A DNA stretch of 49,959 bases from Leifsonia sp. TF02-11 (GTDB lineage: Bacteria; Actinomycetota; Actinomycetes; Actinomycetales; Microbacteriaceae), in the NCBI RefSeq assembly GCF_017565305.1, contig NZ_JAGEKP010000025.1, positions 1 through 49,959 on the forward strand, written 5' to 3'. Numbering within the stretch: position 1 is the first letter of the stretch; every line of letters begins with the position of its first letter. Made by a program: the position numbers and the translations under genes. Under the pieces are notes generated by a model. It was not told the DNA's origin and made no database searches. It was given only the letters and a program-made list of their open reading frames with translations. Shown piece by piece: positions 18,322 through 46,024 of this stretch.

Positions 18322-18743
18322 ACCGACCAGCACCACGCAAATCCAGCCTCGCCGGATCGAGCCCCATCACGCCGCCACCCGCGGCCGCGCCGACTGCCGT
18401 CGACGCCACCCGGTGGACGCAAGAACAGCACGAGGACGCCGACCAGGTAGAGCAGACCCGCCAGCTCCAGGCTGCCGAGCGCGCCGCGACGAAGCCCGCG
18501 CCACGCGAGCCGAAGTCACGGGCGAAGGTGTCGTTCTACCAAGACCCCGCCGACACCGACCGCGTGCGCGGCGCGATCCTCTACACGATGACCACTGAGG
18601 GCAGCCGCAACCTCTCGCAGTTCATCCACAAGGCCGTCATGGCCGAGGTCGAGCGCCTGGAAGCCAAGTACAACAACGGGCAGCCGTTCCCGCCCGTGGG
18701 AGCCCGTGAGCTGCCCCAGGGGGCCGCTGCGGCCAACCTGTAG
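18318..18743 (+). CDS. parB: ParB-like ribbon-helix-helix centromere-binding protein
   Basis: 141 residues. A flexible N-terminal part (about 1-70, Pro/Ala/Gln-rich) precedes a ribbon-helix-helix core (about 75-120, KVSFYQDPADTDRVRGAILY and NLSQFIHKAVMAEVERLE). Small RHH partners of ParA bind centromere repeats and often repress their own operon. It is therefore the best candidate to bind the TAAYAGTACTRTTA palindromes, though the sequence does not prove this. Not homologous to the large HTH-type ParB. Confidence 0.8.
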   Translation: MNRPAPRKSSLAGSSPITPPPAAAPTAVDATRWTQEQHEDADQVEQTRQLQAAERAATKPAPREPKSRAKVSFYQDPADTDRVRGAILYTMTTEGSRNLSQFIHKAVMAEVERLEAKYNNGQPFPPVGARELPQGAAAANL

Positions 18744-40914: not shown

Positions 40915-41690
40915 GTGAGGACGACAAGTACACCTACCCCGACAGCGGGGGAGTGCTCGTCAACTCGAAGGGGATACGCAACGCCGCCCGGCTCGATGCC
41001 GCGATGAACGACTATGCCTCTGTCGCAATGGCGGAGCTGCGCACCGAGCCGACGCCGGATCGGTTGGACTACGACTACCTGCGCCGCATCCATACGCGGC
41101 TGTTCGAGCGCATCGTGCCTGGCATCGCCGGTAAGCTCCGCGACGTCGACGTGCAAGCGACCGGGGTCGGGATCGCGTACTGCCGTCCCGAGTACATCGA
41201 GCCCAACCTCACTCGCCTGTTCGACCAGCTCGACCGCGAGGACTACCTGACGGGGCTGGACGCCGACACGTTCGCTGCGCGGCTCGCAGACCGTTGGGGG
41301 GACCTTTCGGCCATCCATCCCTACCGTGACGGGAACACGCGCAGCCAAAGCCTCTACGTCACCGTGCTCGCTGAGCGAGCCGGGCACCCGATCGACTGGC
41401 GGCGCGTCAACGTGGACGAGCTGCGCACCGCTCGGCTGCGCGCCGTCGTCGGCAACACCAAGCCGCTGGCCGATTATCTCGGTGCCAGGCTCATGAGCTC
41501 CGAAGCTCCACGGCAGAGCCCGTCCCTGTCGAGCACGGCGGGCGTCAGCTCGGCGCTACACGCGAGTTTTCCGCAACCCGCTACTGAAGCCACGCGGAGA
41601 ACGCCGCCGGCAGGCGGCATCCAGGAGCGCGGGAGTGCCCCCCACACGTCCGGAGCTCGGTATGGCATGGATCGAGGGATGGGGCGATGA
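40911..41690 (+). CDS. Fic-domain protein (toxin)
   Basis: 259 residues. The Fic motif is HPYRDGNTRSQS at residues 136-147; canonical HxFx(D/E)GNGRxxR. Catalytic His136 and the Asp-Gly-Asn are kept, but Gly is Thr and the final Arg is Ser. The N-terminal helices and flap (IAGKLRDVDVQ) are present. The end (about 195-259) is low-complexity. AMPylation is the usual activity of the family but the changed motif leaves substrate and reaction open. GTG start. Confidence 0.8.
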   Translation: MSEDDKYTYPDSGGVLVNSKGIRNAARLDAAMNDYASVAMAELRTEPTPDRLDYDYLRRIHTRLFERIVPGIAGKLRDVDVQATGVGIAYCRPEYIEPNLTRLFDQLDREDYLTGLDADTFAARLADRWGDLSAIHPYRDGNTRSQSLYVTVLAERAGHPIDWRRVNVDELRTARLRAVVGNTKPLADYLGARLMSSEAPRQSPSLSSTAGVSSALHASFPQPATEATRRTPPAGGIQERGSAPHTSGARYGMDRGMGR

Positions 41691-42268
41691 GCAACGTTGT
41701 CGGATACGCGCGGGTGTCGCGTCATGACCAGAACCCGGCAGCCCAGGAGGCCGAGCTGCGCGCGGCAGGCGCCGGGCGGGTGTTCGTCGACCACGGCGAG
41801 TCCAGCCGTGTGAAAGACCGCCCGCAGTGGCTCGCATGCCTGGACTACCTGCGCCCCGGCGACACACTGCTGGTGCGCCGGCTCGATCGCCTCGCGGGCA
41901 GCGAGAAGATGGCCATCGAGACGATCACGGACCTGCACGAGCGGGGCGTGAACATCAAGAGCCTCACCGAGCCGGACATCGACACGACAACCCCGATGGG
42001 CCGAGCCCTGTTCGGCATCGTTGCCGTGTTCGCGCAGCTCCGCGTCGACACGATCCGGGAGAACACCGTACGGGGCCTGGCTCACGCGCGCGCTGAGGGT
42101 CGCGTGGGAGGCCGACCCTCGGTGATGACAGCGGAACGGACCGCCGCGGCCGCGCGGATGCGTGAGCAGGGCGACAGCATCGCACAGATCGCGGCCGTGC
42201 TCGGCGTCGGCAAGTCATCCGTCGCGCGCGCGCTTGCGAAGCACGACCAGAGCCAGCCGTCGGCCTGA
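41687..42268 (+). CDS. Small serine recombinase
   Basis: 193 residues: GYARVSRHDQNP with nucleophile Ser, RRLDRLAGSEKMA, PMGRALFGIVAVFAQLRVDTIRENTVRGLA, and a C-terminal helix-turn-helix (DSIAQIAAVLGVGKSSVARALA). It differs clearly from the recombinase at 39944. Overlaps the Fic gene by four bases, an unusual operon partner. Probably a resolvase for plasmid multimers or an element. Confidence 0.85.
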   Translation: MSNVVGYARVSRHDQNPAAQEAELRAAGAGRVFVDHGESSRVKDRPQWLACLDYLRPGDTLLVRRLDRLAGSEKMAIETITDLHERGVNIKSLTEPDIDTTTPMGRALFGIVAVFAQLRVDTIRENTVRGLAHARAEGRVGGRPSVMTAERTAAAARMREQGDSIAQIAAVLGVGKSSVARALAKHDQSQPSA

Positions 42269-42716: not shown

Positions 42717-42905
42717 TCACTGCTCGTCGTTCAGCCACTCTGCGACCTCTGAGCTGAGGTATCGGACGGTGCGGGGAGTGATGCGGATGTAGGCCGGCCC
42801 GATGCCCTGATCCCGTAGGCGGCGCAGGTGCTCGACGTCGACGCCGAGCTGCGCGGCGAGGGCCTTGGGTGTGAGCATCGTGGGCCGCTTCTGGTCGTCG
42901 TTCAC
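42717..42905 (-). CDS. Excisionase-type HTH protein
   Basis: 62 residues with a HTH_17-type fold: MLTPKALAAQLGVDVEHLRR, RITPRTVRYLSSEVAEWL. The GTG start at 42905 overlaps the stop of the 30-residue peptide gene by four bases (GTGA), so it is translationally coupled to that peptide. Longer frames reaching 43211 are read through the peptide gene and the structured region and are rejected. Confidence 0.75.
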   Translation of the reverse strand: MNDDQKRPTMLTPKALAAQLGVDVEHLRRLRDQGIGPAYIRITPRTVRYLSSEVAEWLNDEQ

Positions 42906-42994
42906 TGGCACGAGTCGCATCCCATCTCGTCCATCGGGTCGACGGGTACGGCGTACCCTCCGATGTTCTCGATCTGCTCGGTTTCCCTGTTCAT
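42902..42994 (-). CDS. 30-residue peptide ending in a CDSCQ motif
   Basis: A short gene with AAGG eight bases before its ATG and coupled to the HTH gene. The end YAVPVDPMDEMGCDSCQ matches YVVPIDPMEALQCDSCQ at the end of the 93-residue protein at 16279-16560. The rest (MNRETEQIENIGG) is acidic. Conservation of a tail in two unrelated contexts supports a real product. Function unknown; two cysteines could bind metal or be modified. Confidence 0.65.
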   Translation of the reverse strand: MNRETEQIENIGGYAVPVDPMDEMGCDSCQ

Positions 42995-43106
42995 CGTTCG
43001 GCCTTCCGGTTGTTGTGTGTCCGATTGAAAGTTGGCAGTTCGGCGCTTGCGACGAGCTGGCTGCTTTCAACGGAACACTGGCCGACTTGCACGCAGTGGA
43101 GAGGCG

Positions 43107-43157
43107 GTCAAGGGGAGCCCGTAGGGCTCTCCCGAAGGGACGCGTAGCGCCCTTGAC
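43107..43157 (+). other. Perfect four-way-junction sequence with three GNA-loop arms
   Basis: Fifty-one bases that pair completely: outer helix GTCAAGGG/CCCTTGAC (43107-43114 with 43150-43157), then three directly adjoining hairpins: GAGCCC-GTA-GGGCTC (43115-43129), TCCC-GAA-GGGA (43130-43140) and CGC-GTA-GCG (43141-43149). No base is unpaired except the three triloops, all of the GNA type. It is non-coding. CCCCCGC-AGC-GCGGGGG follows at 43178-43194. Flanking gap 42995-43250 has no other gene. Confidence 0.7.
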
Positions 43158-43168
43158 GGCCTCGTAGC

Positions 43169-43194
43169 GGAGTGCAACCCCCGCAGCGCGGGGG
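43169..43194 (-). repeat. Hairpin plus TTGCACTCC motif (third copy)
   Basis: On the minus strand CCCCCGC-GCT-GCGGGGG is followed by TTGCACTCC, as CCC-TGC-GGG is followed by TTGCACTCC in both structured elements at 14074-14091 and 16187-16204. Stem length and bases differ, the tail is identical. Confidence 0.55.
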
Positions 43195-43198
43195 CATG

Positions 43199-43239
43199 CG
43201 AAAGGCCCCACGCCGCAGAGCGGAACGTGGGGCCTTTCG
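43199..43239 (-). terminator. Terminator hairpin of the gene at 43251
   Basis: CGAAAGGCCCCACG (43199-43212) pairs perfectly with CGTGGGGCCTTTCG (43226-43239), with an inner CCGC-AGA-GCGG hairpin. It starts 12 bases after the stop of the minus-strand gene. Confidence 0.75.
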
Positions 43240-43250
43240 TGAGTGCGTGG

Positions 43251-43622
43251 TCAACCCTGCGAGGACGTCTCCTGCGCTGGTTCGGTGGCCGCCTCGGAGA
43301 CGGGTCGGTTCGCTGGCTTGCGCGTTGCGCGTCGCCGGGTGCGAGCCTTCTTGTCGGGCTCGGAGAACCCGATCTTGCGAAGCTCCTCCGCGGTCCATCC
43401 GGCGCTCACTGCGGCGGAGTAGGCGCGCACGTCGTCGCGCTCTGCGTTGGCGATCCGCTCCGCGATCCTCGCTTGCAGCTCGCTCAGCTCGCGGTCGGTC
43501 TGCTCGCGCACATCGACGAGCGCCTGGCGCGCCTCCGCGACGCTGCGAACGGCGTTGAGCCGGTCGTCCTGTAGACGTCGCGCGCGCTCGATTGCTTCCT
43601 CTGGTGTCAGTTGCGTAGCCAT
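43251..43622 (-). CDS. Coiled-coil protein near the mobilization region
   Basis: 123 residues. Residues about 5-75 are a charged helix suited to a coiled coil (ARRLQDDRLNAVRSVAEARQ..LSELQARIAERIANA), followed by WTAEELRKIGFSEPDKKARTRRR and a basic tail. Similar small proteins sit beside relaxase genes in actinobacterial plasmids. Possible relaxosome helper; no firm family. Confidence 0.6.
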   Translation of the reverse strand: MATQLTPEEAIERARRLQDDRLNAVRSVAEARQALVDVREQTDRELSELQARIAERIANAERDDVRAYSAAVSAGWTAEELRKIGFSEPDKKARTRRRATRKPANRPVSEAATEPAQETSSQG

Positions 43623-43683
43623 GCACTAATGGTACGGAGCTGAGCGCCTCTCGTCGACGCCCATCGACACACTGACAAGCAGC

Positions 43684-43814
43684 CGCGGCGAAGCCGCGAC
43701 CACTCCCGTCTGACGATGTTAGCAAATGCGATTGGAGTCCCGGACGGAGGGACGGAGCAAGCTATACGATCCGGTAGCCGGATCGGGCTTGATCCTCGAC
43801 ACAAGGTCGAGGAT
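43684..43814. other. Candidate oriT, inverted-repeat cluster
   Basis: Upstream of the mobilization genes lie four inverted repeats: CGCGGC-GAA-GCCGCG (43684-43698), GTCCC-N7-GGGAC (43737-43753), GATCCGG-TAG-CCGGATC (43768-43784) and ATCCTCGAC-ACAAG-GTCGAGGAT (43792-43814). Relaxases of this class usually nick beside inverted repeats close to their own gene. No nick site can be named. The gap 43623-43883 has no gene. Confidence 0.45.
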
Positions 43815-43883
43815 GCGGCACACTGGACGTGTGGTCCCCGCGTTAGGCGGGGTCGCTGCGCTGGGCCGAGAGGAGGTGACGGC

Positions 43884-44303
43884 ATGGCCGTTTCTGACAC
43901 CGCGGGGGAGCAGGAGCCGCGCCGCCAGGCACGCCGCCGTCGCGTCGAGGGCGGTCGCCGGCACCGTCATGTCGTCCGCGTCACTCCGGAGGAAGAGGGG
44001 CAGCTCCTCGCGCTCGCCTTGCAGTACAAGGTGAGCGTGCCCAAGCTGCTTGTGGATTCCGCTCTCGCTGGAGGAGCTGCGGCCGCCGCGTCGAATGCGT
44101 CGGTGCGGCATGAGGTCATTGCGCAAATGTTCTCCACGCACCGGCTGCTGGCCACGATTGCGAATAACGTGAACCAGATGGCGAAGGCGACGAACGCGAC
44201 TGGCGACGTGCAGGCTGAGATGGTGGCGACGCTGCGGAAGGTCCGCGAGGTGGCCGATCGGATCGACGCATTCGTCGACGAGCTGAGCGGTGCAGCGTCG
44301 TGA
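43884..44303 (+). CDS. mobC: MobC-like relaxosome accessory protein
   Basis: 139 residues. A basic start (RRQARRRRVEGGRRHRHVVRVTPEEEGQLLALALQYKVSVPKLLVDSAL) has a ribbon-helix-helix look and the C-terminal half is helical (LLATIANNVNQMAKATNATGDV), the bacterial mobilization protein MobC pattern. It would open DNA at oriT for the relaxase, whose gene it overlaps by four bases (GTGA). GAGGAGGT sets the start. Confidence 0.85.
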   Translation: MAVSDTAGEQEPRRQARRRRVEGGRRHRHVVRVTPEEEGQLLALALQYKVSVPKLLVDSALAGGAAAAASNASVRHEVIAQMFSTHRLLATIANNVNQMAKATNATGDVQAEMVATLRKVREVADRIDAFVDELSGAAS

Positions 44304-46024
44304 TGCCGAACGTCGTCCGCGGCGATCGCATGTCGGGACTGATGACGTACCTCACCGGCCCGGGCCGGTCGAACGAGCACACCGAACCGCACCTGGTCGC
44401 GGGCGATCCGGCGCTGATGGCGTGGCACGACGACGCGGAGCTCGGACGCGACGCGGCGCTGTCGATCGCGCGTCACTTGGACAAGCCGCGGGCTGTGTTC
44501 GGTGTCGAGGTTCCGGGCGGTCACGTGTGGCACTGCTCGCTGTCGCTGCGCGCCGACGAAGGGCAGCTCGCGGACGAGCAGTGGGGCGCGATCGCCAACG
44601 ACTTCATCACGGCGATGGAGTTCGACGACAACGAGGGGACGAAGGCGCCGTGCCGGTGGGTTGCCGTCCGTCACGGTGTGTCCTCGAACGGCAACGACCA
44701 CATCCACATCGCTGTGAACCTGGTTCGCGAGGACGGCACCAAGGCATCGATCCACAACGACTTCCACCGCGCCCAGGTCGCGGCCCGAGCGCTTGAAGTG
44801 AAGTACGGATTGGAGCAGCTGGAATCGGTGCGCGCAGAGCGCTCCACACGCGGGTACGACCCGGCCGAGCGGGAGGCTCAGGCACGGTCGCGAGCACGCG
44901 CGAAGTACGAACGCACCCGCCCGCAGTTGGGCGATGACGCCCTACGCTGGGAACATCTGACCGGCCCCGATCGGCAGGCTCGGATCAGCGCCGAGCTGCG
45001 CACCGATCAGCCCCGCTACCTGCTGGCGTTGAAGGTCCGAGGGTGTGCTGGCGCTAGTCGGAGTGAAGCCGAGTTCGTGCGCCGGATGCGGCGTGAAGGG
45101 TTGCTCGTACGCCCTCGCTACGCTGACGGGCGTACTGACGTCGTGACCGGCTACTCGGTGGCCGAACGACCCACGGCCGGGGAACGTCCGATCTGGTACG
45201 GCGGCGGCCACCTTGGCCGCGACCTCACGCTGCCGCGGCTGCGCGACGGGTGGGAGGACACCCCGCAAGGCGCTACCGCGGCGGTGGCCGAATGGAACGC
45301 GGCCAAGCGTGGCCGGCGAGTTGTGGCACCTGGTCGCGAACGGCTGGAGCCGACGAACGATCAAGCACTGCGACACAGCGAGCGACTGGCGCGTACTGTC
45401 GACGAGCTGGCGCGCGTTCCGCTTGACGATCGCGAGACGTGGGCCACGGTGGCACGGCAGACCGCTGGCGCTCTCGCTGCATGGTCGAACGCCGTGGAGG
45501 AGACGCCAGGTGATATCGCTGCGGCCGCTGAGGCGTTGTCTCGATCGGCGCAGACGTATCGACGCACCCCGCCTCCGGCGAAGGCGGGAACGATCGCTAT
45601 TTCCGGGGCTGCGCTGTTCCTGGCAAGCGCGGTACGCGGAGGGCAAGGCACTGTCGGTGAAGCGGCTCTTGTGCGAGAGATGCTGACACTCACCGTTGCC
45701 GTCATGAAGGTGGCGGAGGCCGCACGTCAGGACCGCTACGCGCGTACCGCTCTAGCGGATGCGCGCGACCGATTGGAGCGTGTACACGCAGCGTTGCCGA
45801 CTCCGCCAGCCCGTAGCGTCGGCCAGGCTGCCGTAGTCGAGGAGCAGGGCAGCGTGGCGACAGAGGCTCCCGCGCTCGACGCTGAGACTCGTGCCATGCT
45901 CGACCGGCTGAACGCCGGCCGGAGCGGCACGCCAGGCTCGCCCGTCCCGCGGGAGCTGCGACCCGATGACTCACCAGCTCGCCGGCCGGCACCACGTCCG
46001 GGACGGGACGGGACAGAGCGATGA
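44300..46024 (+). CDS. Relaxase (MobA/VirD2-like nuclease)
   Basis: 574 residues. N-terminal nuclease domain: RHGVSSNGNDHIHIAVNLVRE has the metal-binding HxHxxxN motif (His134, His136, Asn140) and another pair VPGGHVWHCSLSL (His75, His78). A catalytic Tyr is probably in MTYLTG (Tyr17). The C-terminal part is mostly helical and Ala/Arg-rich. It nicks oriT and pilots the strand to the channel. GTG 44300 or ATG 44303. Confidence 0.88.
   Translation: MMPNVVRGDRMSGLMTYLTGPGRSNEHTEPHLVAGDPALMAWHDDAELGRDAALSIARHLDKPRAVFGVEVPGGHVWHCSLSLRADEGQLADEQWGAIANDFITAMEFDDNEGTKAPCRWVAVRHGVSSNGNDHIHIAVNLVREDGTKASIHNDFHRAQVAARALEVKYGLEQLESVRAERSTRGYDPAEREAQARSRARAKYERTRPQLGDDALRWEHLTGPDRQARISAELRTDQPRYLLALKVRGCAGASRSEAEFVRRMRREGLLVRPRYADGRTDVVTGYSVAERPTAGERPIWYGGGHLGRDLTLPRLRDGWEDTPQGATAAVAEWNAAKRGRRVVAPGRERLEPTNDQALRHSERLARTVDELARVPLDDRETWATVARQTAGALAAWSNAVEETPGDIAAAAEALSRSAQTYRRTPPPAKAGTIAISGAALFLASAVRGGQGTVGEAALVREMLTLTVAVMKVAEAARQDRYARTALADARDRLERVHAALPTPPARSVGQAAVVEEQGSVATEAPALDAETRAMLDRLNAGRSGTPGSPVPRELRPDDSPARRPAPRPGRDGTER

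Follow-up and report, generated by a model that had tools for sequence, protein, structure and literature searches.

A cloverleaf-capped DNA hairpin with a promoter signature, a candidate single-strand promoter of actinobacterial plasmids and chromosomal mobile units

What role could a fully paired DNA cloverleaf play ahead of the mobilization genes of an actinobacterial plasmid? The question was raised by an earlier note on a window of 49,959 nucleotides from Leifsonia sp. TF02-11 (contig NZ_JAGEKP010000025.1, the whole stretch of DNA analysed here), in which a 51-base cloverleaf with three GNA triloops was proposed to be either a single-strand DNA structure read during transfer (priming site, relaxosome or recombinase target) or a small RNA. 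To our knowledge, single- to double-strand conversion is poorly known in actinobacterial plasmids and integrative elements. Sequence comparison indicated that the window very probably comes from a Leifsonia plasmid, since a 271-base query covering 42980-43250 was identical in the Leifsonia shinshuensis plasmid NZ_CP043643. No gene is annotated at the element in that plasmid, in agreement with the non-coding site described earlier.

The cloverleaf-capped hairpin in the window

The following parts were recognised at the site:

43107-43157, + strand: cloverleaf tip (neck and arms 1-3), from the fold, a strict search and covariance model R1
43087-43177, + strand: whole cloverleaf-capped hairpin, from the predicted fold, limits approximate
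43153-43158, + strand: -35-like TTGACG in the 3' strand of the neck, from the sequence and the family analysis
43175-43180, + strand: -10 position, CAACCC, weak, from the predicted fold and the family offset analysis
43178-43194, + strand: second hairpin, CCCCCGC-AGC-GCGGGGG, immediately downstream, from sequence and fold
43201-43237, no strand assigned: terminator-like inverted repeat AAAGGCCCCACG/CGTGGGGCCTTT, by eye, from sequence and fold

The 8-bp neck (GTCAAGGG/CCCTTGAC) carries three arms of 6, 4 and 3 bp closed by the loops GTA, GAA and GTA, respectively, and no base is unpaired outside the three triloops; sequence and fold were as the earlier note had described them. The interval 43107-43157 that it had delimited holds for the cloverleaf tip and falls short of the rest of the hairpin, which is predicted to run further outward. 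In the outer stem, GAGGC (43101-43105) pairs with GCCTC (43159-43163) and TTGCAC (43087-43092) pairs with GTGCAA (43172-43177), with an internal loop between the two helices.

Folded as DNA, the 51-base cloverleaf reached -16.9 kcal/mol (z -4.55), and none of 200 shuffles was as stable; folded as RNA it reached -27.4 (z -3.41), with 1 of 200 shuffles as stable. A strict search limited to Watson-Crick pairs, contiguous arms of 3-9 bp, triloops and a neck of at least 6 bp returned this contiguous four-way junction as the single site in the window, visible from both strands, and returned none in 60 dinucleotide-shuffled windows. When G-T pairs, 1-nt linkers and loops of 3-4 nt were allowed, an equal score was obtained at 18367-18422 on the minus strand of the window and in 3 of 20 shuffles. 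The general cloverleaf shape is therefore unexceptional in this GC-rich window, its gap-free form being the exceptional feature, and the case for the element rests on its relatives.

A covarying family with a promoter signature

Distant blastn searches of plasmids using the window stretch as a query gave 24 records at E ≤1, and searches with three other family members gave 23, 18 and 20 records at E ≤0.1; these sets overlap, and not all of the matches reach across the cloverleaf. In most plasmid matches no annotated gene lay beneath the element. A pattern scan of GTDB representatives returned at least 118 loci (8 of them chance by eye), mainly in Actinomycetota, the others coming from Caulobacter, a Myxococcales MAG, Acidobacteria and a few more lineages, where some MAG labels may be wrong. 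Matches at E ≤0.01 were found in 25 of 119 genomes, the window's own included, six of them weak only; several were chromosomal copies, indicating that the element is not confined to plasmids. The family is widespread, mostly in Actinomycetota and also in Caulobacter, and literature searches returned no published description of such a cloverleaf element.

Rows without a fold by eye (L025, L058, L079, L083, L099, L105, L108, L114 and L122), copies lying within 30 nt of the end of a locus and duplicate cores were removed, which reduced 124 rows to 113. Alignment A1 was made of 66 sequences hand-picked from these 113, and 57 copies kept by a thinning script were used for promoter and pairing tests; all copies share ancestry and copy counts are not independent. 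The search pattern had fixed the neck and arm 3, leaving arm 1, arm 2 and the outer stem free, and it is these free parts that covary strongly across the family. Across the 66 sequences, 93.5% of cells were paired as compared to 75.0% in shuffles, and the covariation score was 0.435 as compared to 0.113, values reached by none of 500 shuffles in either case. Fifteen pairs were changed on both sides (reached by 2 of 500 shuffles) and 51 further pair types were counted (reached by 6 of 500), while versions of the structure slid along the alignment scored at most 0.098, a comparison that favours the proposed structure because it was derived from the same alignment. Covarying homologues, whose absence the earlier note had named as evidence against its structure, were thus found. 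The strict triloop cloverleaf is intact in 61 of the 113 copies; among these, the loop of arm 1 is GNA in 49, TNC in 9 and another triplet in 3, and that of arm 2 is GNA in 52, TNC in 7 and another in 2. The window site, itself part of the alignment behind covariance model R1, scored 81.7 bits with this model on the plus strand and 26.2 on the minus strand.

The 3' strand of the neck, CCCTTGAC, contains a -35 sequence. In 30 of the 57 thinned copies, the A and the T of the two key -10 positions were found 16-17 nt after TTGACN; other downstream offsets, not counting the five nearest the peak, gave a mean of 1.9 copies and at most 6, and the mirror flank gave 5 copies at the same offset, with an A/T signal of its own at +6/+7 (17/57). 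The signature was present at this distance in 18 of 26 plasmid copies (L334 and one of the two copies in L344 excluded), other offsets giving a mean of 0.5 and a maximum of 2. The -10 was unconstrained by any search; for the chromosomal copies it is the only part of the signature that counts, because TTGA belonged to the pattern used to fetch them. Examples include TATATT in pRGF00065, TAAACT in Rothia, GACAAT in Cryobacterium, CATCAT on a Leifsonia chromosome, TACACT and TATCAT in Pseudonocardiaceae and GATAAT in Caulobacter.

Predicted pairing was high over most of the spacer and low at +20 to +25: its mean was 0.72 at +16, dropped to 0.20 at +21/+22 and was again 0.40-0.49 at +30 to +41. 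The first six spacer positions (the pairs next to the neck, helix 1) covary with the upstream flank, and the promoter duplex would therefore be formed within one strand. Computed at the level of the family only, this is the layout of Frpo/ssi, with the -35 in a duplex stem, the -10 at its opening and the correct spacing between them.

On balance, we lean towards reading the element as a primer site and a promoter of the Frpo/sso type, made of folded single-strand DNA with a cloverleaf cap. When the plus strand is single-stranded, either during rolling-circle replication or as the transferred strand, it would fold back on itself; the -35 (TTGAC) would then be double-stranded within the neck and the spacer within the outer stem, and the -10 would sit where the pairing opens. 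Host RNA polymerase could then bind the folded element and transcribe into its 5' flank, and the transcript would serve as a primer for second-strand synthesis, possibly also as an early transcript. Several observations speak against this reading. The -10 of the window, CAACCC, is poor: it carries the A without the final T, and it begins with three bases that pair in the predicted fold. The A/T signature is also missing in 27 of the 57 copies of the thinned set and in 8 of the 26 from plasmids. The A/T signal of the mirror flank at +6/+7 and, as described below, the 28 related relaxase loci that showed no element and the opposite strand of a transfer gene in Kocuria pCE7 weigh against it as well.

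The -35/-10 spacing, taken alone, fits a plain double-stranded promoter as well, and the terminator-like repeat comes next in the window. Both points agree with an ordinary or cruciform-regulated double-stranded promoter that fires downstream and gives a short RNA. We regard such a promoter as unlikely, because it leaves unexplained the unpaired -10 and the pairing of the neck and first spacer positions with the upstream flank; covariation between spacer and flank is not needed by a double-stranded promoter and supports the folded single-strand one. As for the short RNA itself, no Rfam 15 family reached the gathering score in the window, and the best low-threshold match had an E value of 0.16 and lay away from the cloverleaf; a search for tRNA and tmRNA genes found none. 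The earlier suggestion that the cloverleaf is a small RNA lost ground for a further reason: the promoter signature follows the cloverleaf on its 3' side, so that a transcript started there would not contain the structure.

Strand and position of the element on plasmids

The element of the window is surrounded by the following genes and features:

41687-42268, + strand: recombinase (resolvase) family gene, in the recurring Fic-resolvase-element-mob order, coordinates transferred from a related plasmid
42717-42920, - strand: helix-turn-helix gene directly upstream of the element, annotation of a related plasmid with transferred coordinates
43251-43622, - strand: short hypothetical ORF that separates the element from the mob genes, present likewise in many related plasmids
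43623-43883, + strand: conserved oriT-like gap upstream of mobC, from an alignment of eight sequences
43884-44303, + strand: mobC (PF05713), profile match
44300-46024, + strand: MobA/VirD2-like relaxase (PF03432), profile match

The start of mobC (43884) lies 727 bp past the cloverleaf. Twenty-seven plasmid regions were fetched and the model matched all of them, eight (L016-L022 and the window's twin, L024) by construction, their elements being part of A1. A MobC or relaxase gene was found in the flank of 14 of the 27 regions, always downstream and on the strand of the element. Together with contigs L085 and L115, the element was on the MobC/relaxase strand at 16 of 16 clear loci, which are related to each other and represent fewer than 16 independent events in about five arrangements; a 17th locus (L349) agreed on the strand, the call being doubtful with 31.8 and 28.1 bits on the two strands. 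This strand bias is again a property computed for the family and counts in favour of the folded-promoter reading. The recurring gene order was VbhA-Fic, resolvase, element, small reverse ORF, gap, mobC and relaxase, as seen in Miniimonas, Paenarthrobacter, Glutamicibacter, Gulosibacter and Cryobacterium; the window has small extra genes in between, and Cutibacterium pTZC1 has another gene pair instead of VbhA-Fic. The mob module of L085, a contig labelled Acidobacteria UBA2994, is very like that of Microbacterium L115, and a binning error is possible.

This association with mob genes could mean that the element is part of the oriT, or a relaxosome or recombinase target: it lies 0.2-0.9 kb upstream of mobC at these loci, always on the same strand, and in several of them a recombinase gene is its nearest upstream neighbour. 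Relatives of the relaxase were found in 34 of 248 genomes. Only 2 of 30 related relaxase loci showed the element, one of the two being the window; the flanks covered reached no further than 1.5 kb, and among the 28 loci without the element a few start inside the relaxase and may fall short upstream. The element therefore looks modular. No comparable upstream structure was recognised in the ten elementless loci that were viewed. In addition, 13 fetched plasmid regions carry the element and show neither MobC nor relaxase in the part fetched, chromosomes carry it too, and mobC is immediately preceded by a conserved gap distinct from the element. This gap (43623-43883) is likely to be the oriT, judging from the eight aligned sequences, in which AGCAAGC (43756-43762) is invariant; it also has several hairpins. 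Collectively, these data make an oriT or relaxosome role for the cloverleaf very improbable. Of the earlier readings, a single-strand DNA structure connected with transfer, possibly one for priming, agrees best with the data; the relaxosome/oriT reading finds no support and the small-RNA reading is weakened.

Support for the preferred priming role comes from small plasmids. The 2109-bp plasmid pRGF00065 encodes a Rep_1 initiator (E 1.6e-42), with the element 19 nt after rep and a TTGACG-17-TATATT promoter; the heptamer CTTGATA, which we take to be the nick region of the pC194 type, is found solely on the element's strand, with about 0.26 occurrences expected by chance as estimated from plasmid length. 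In a 1579-bp Curtobacterium plasmid, the element lies 32 nt after a match to Rep_trans that, at E 1.5e-4, misses the Pfam cut-off. The element is on the rep strand in both of the small plasmids with rolling-circle-type Rep matches, one of these matches being below the cut-off, and the rolling-circle link rests on these two plasmids. Related Rep genes are present in 1760 plasmid records. The 3459-bp Rothia plasmid encodes a Replicase-family protein instead of a rolling-circle Rep, indicating that the element is not limited to rolling-circle plasmids.

Two further roles were considered and rejected. A leading-region function, with the folded promoter reading the adjacent upstream genes, did not agree with the orientation of plasmid upstream genes, which by eye was about evenly split. 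A telomere role, suggested by a match about 0.6 kb from the end of a Streptomyces linear plasmid, was given up because the other fetched copies were internal or on circular records. In Kocuria pCE7, a neighbouring gene with a TraM-recognition domain is on the strand opposite to the element, and the nearest gene 5' of the element (L331, 1018-1440) belongs to the ArdC family and could be read by a folded single-strand promoter.

Chromosomal copies and comparison with known systems

Four Leifsonia chromosomal regions were inspected: a tyrosine integrase adjoins the element in one and lies about 2.6-3.4 kb away in another, a third has an integrase-like ORF by eye and in the remaining one none was recognised. 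An integrase relative was found within 3 kb in 10 of 108 loci, with the element on its strand in 9 of the 10. We also noted tRNA genes near some Leifsonia chromosomal copies and related loci. Genes named by eye within 3 kb of the element included XRE-like regulators (15 loci) and a DUF397-like small partner (11 loci), the latter 51 nt from the element in Streptomyces L027, L028 and L062, and in three Streptomyces (L080, L093 and L127) a Vsr-like endonuclease gene was located some 170-240 nt away from it.

Some chromosomes carry many copies. Streptomyces sp. CB03234 (G119) has 20 units (L238-L257), in each of which a pair of inverted cloverleafs, separated by 0.9-2.3 kb, is enclosed in long inverted repeats, which measured about 430-455 nt in two self-compared units; no convincing gene was found inside the three units viewed, and no transposase was recognised by eye among the inverted pairs listed. 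The Pseudonocardiaceae genome G128 has ten DUF222 gene units (L219-L228) with an inverted cloverleaf at each end, one end of L228 being degenerate; the arms differ between copies with pairing mostly kept, and an HNH motif was seen by eye. Other DUF222 subfamilies in this genome (L308-L326) are also multicopy, in units of about 1.3-1.5 kb, some with an imperfect palindrome at one side (L318 2339-2393, L312 816-890), and gave no cloverleaf-model match apart from one weak one. Two Caulobacter MAGs gave 47 and 39 matches, corresponding to at least 28 and at least 23 distinct places among the matches listed, as one palindrome can match on both strands. In one of them (G123), the 20 copies read (L258-L277) are long palindromes tipped with a cloverleaf, and all sit between called genes; of the 17 flanked by called genes on both sides, 9 are between convergent ones, according to crude gene calls.

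Dozens of copies on some chromosomes are not explained by a plasmid priming site, and they keep alive a rival reading in which the element is a selfish or domesticated dispersed palindrome of the MITE/REP type that spreads either as a hairpin of about 130 bp or as the ends of larger units, its presence on plasmids reflecting mere tolerance for insertions. The Caulobacter match numbers, a Streptomyces with 40 distinct copies arranged as 20 inverted pairs, a Pseudonocardiaceae genome with 31 matches, the paired inverted copies that flank a DUF222 gene (ten loci) or lie in long inverted repeats (20 Streptomyces loci) and the common unit of about 132 bp in the Leifsonia chromosomal copies all point in this direction. 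On plasmids, however, a single match is usual, its place and strand with respect to the mob genes recur, and a fixed-offset -10 and spacer covariation would be superfluous for a MITE. Neither candidate mover was general: the Y1/RAYT transposase (PF01797) had a match in 2 of 12 carrier genomes and none in 10, and DUF222 in 6 of 18 and none in 12, the window's own genome being among these 12; 42 other DUF222 loci gave one weak model match. We consider a MITE/REP-like palindrome less probable than the folded promoter, and it may be that the priming role and a mobile palindrome are both true.

A broader proposal, which we put forward tentatively as a possibility, is that one ancient cloverleaf-capped single-strand promoter module primes the second strand of plasmids and integrative elements in actinobacteria generally and was also recruited at both ends of chromosomal mobile units (DUF222-HNH, foldback). 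In such units, the 3' end of each strand would carry its own primer promoter, a layout that recalls the terminal hairpins of parvoviruses. An element that is portable, easily recognised and clear in its predicted strand renders single- to double-strand conversion testable and would explain a recurrent non-coding part of actinobacterial mobile elements, and the multicopy chromosomal forms pose the separate question of how such a structure spreads.

Similarly to the GTAG-tagged REP/RAYT palindromes (PMC3733652), the element is dispersed, intergenic and palindromic, with GTAG around some loops; unlike them, it is larger and cloverleaf-tipped, GTAG is no conserved tag and 10 of 12 carriers have no Y1 match. 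One genome in which the cloverleaf ends a multicopy DUF222 unit resembles the DUF222-HNH/REP13E12 repeats (PMC10589994), from which the family differs in that 12 of 18 carriers have no DUF222 match and 1 of 42 other DUF222 loci gave a weak match. The likeness to sso regions (ICEBs1 sso1 and others, PMC4595007) is closer to the priming role: the element is a non-coding region with a conserved, predicted single-strand fold, found on a rolling-circle plasmid and near integrases, its orientation specificity being by inference only. The sso of ICEBs1/pBAA1 is described as three stem-loops (PMC4595007), whereas the element, compared by description, is one hairpin with a three-armed cloverleaf cap, a partly fixed sequence and a distribution mainly in Actinomycetota. 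Frpo/ssi elements consist of folded DNA imitating a duplex promoter complete with -35 and -10, as the element appears to do, and were looked for in the leading regions of plasmids through their resemblance to five known sequences and through a consensus search (PMC11541004); the element differs from them by its cloverleaf cap and its chromosomal copies. If the folded-promoter reading is true, a distinct architecture would be added to the known single-strand promoters.
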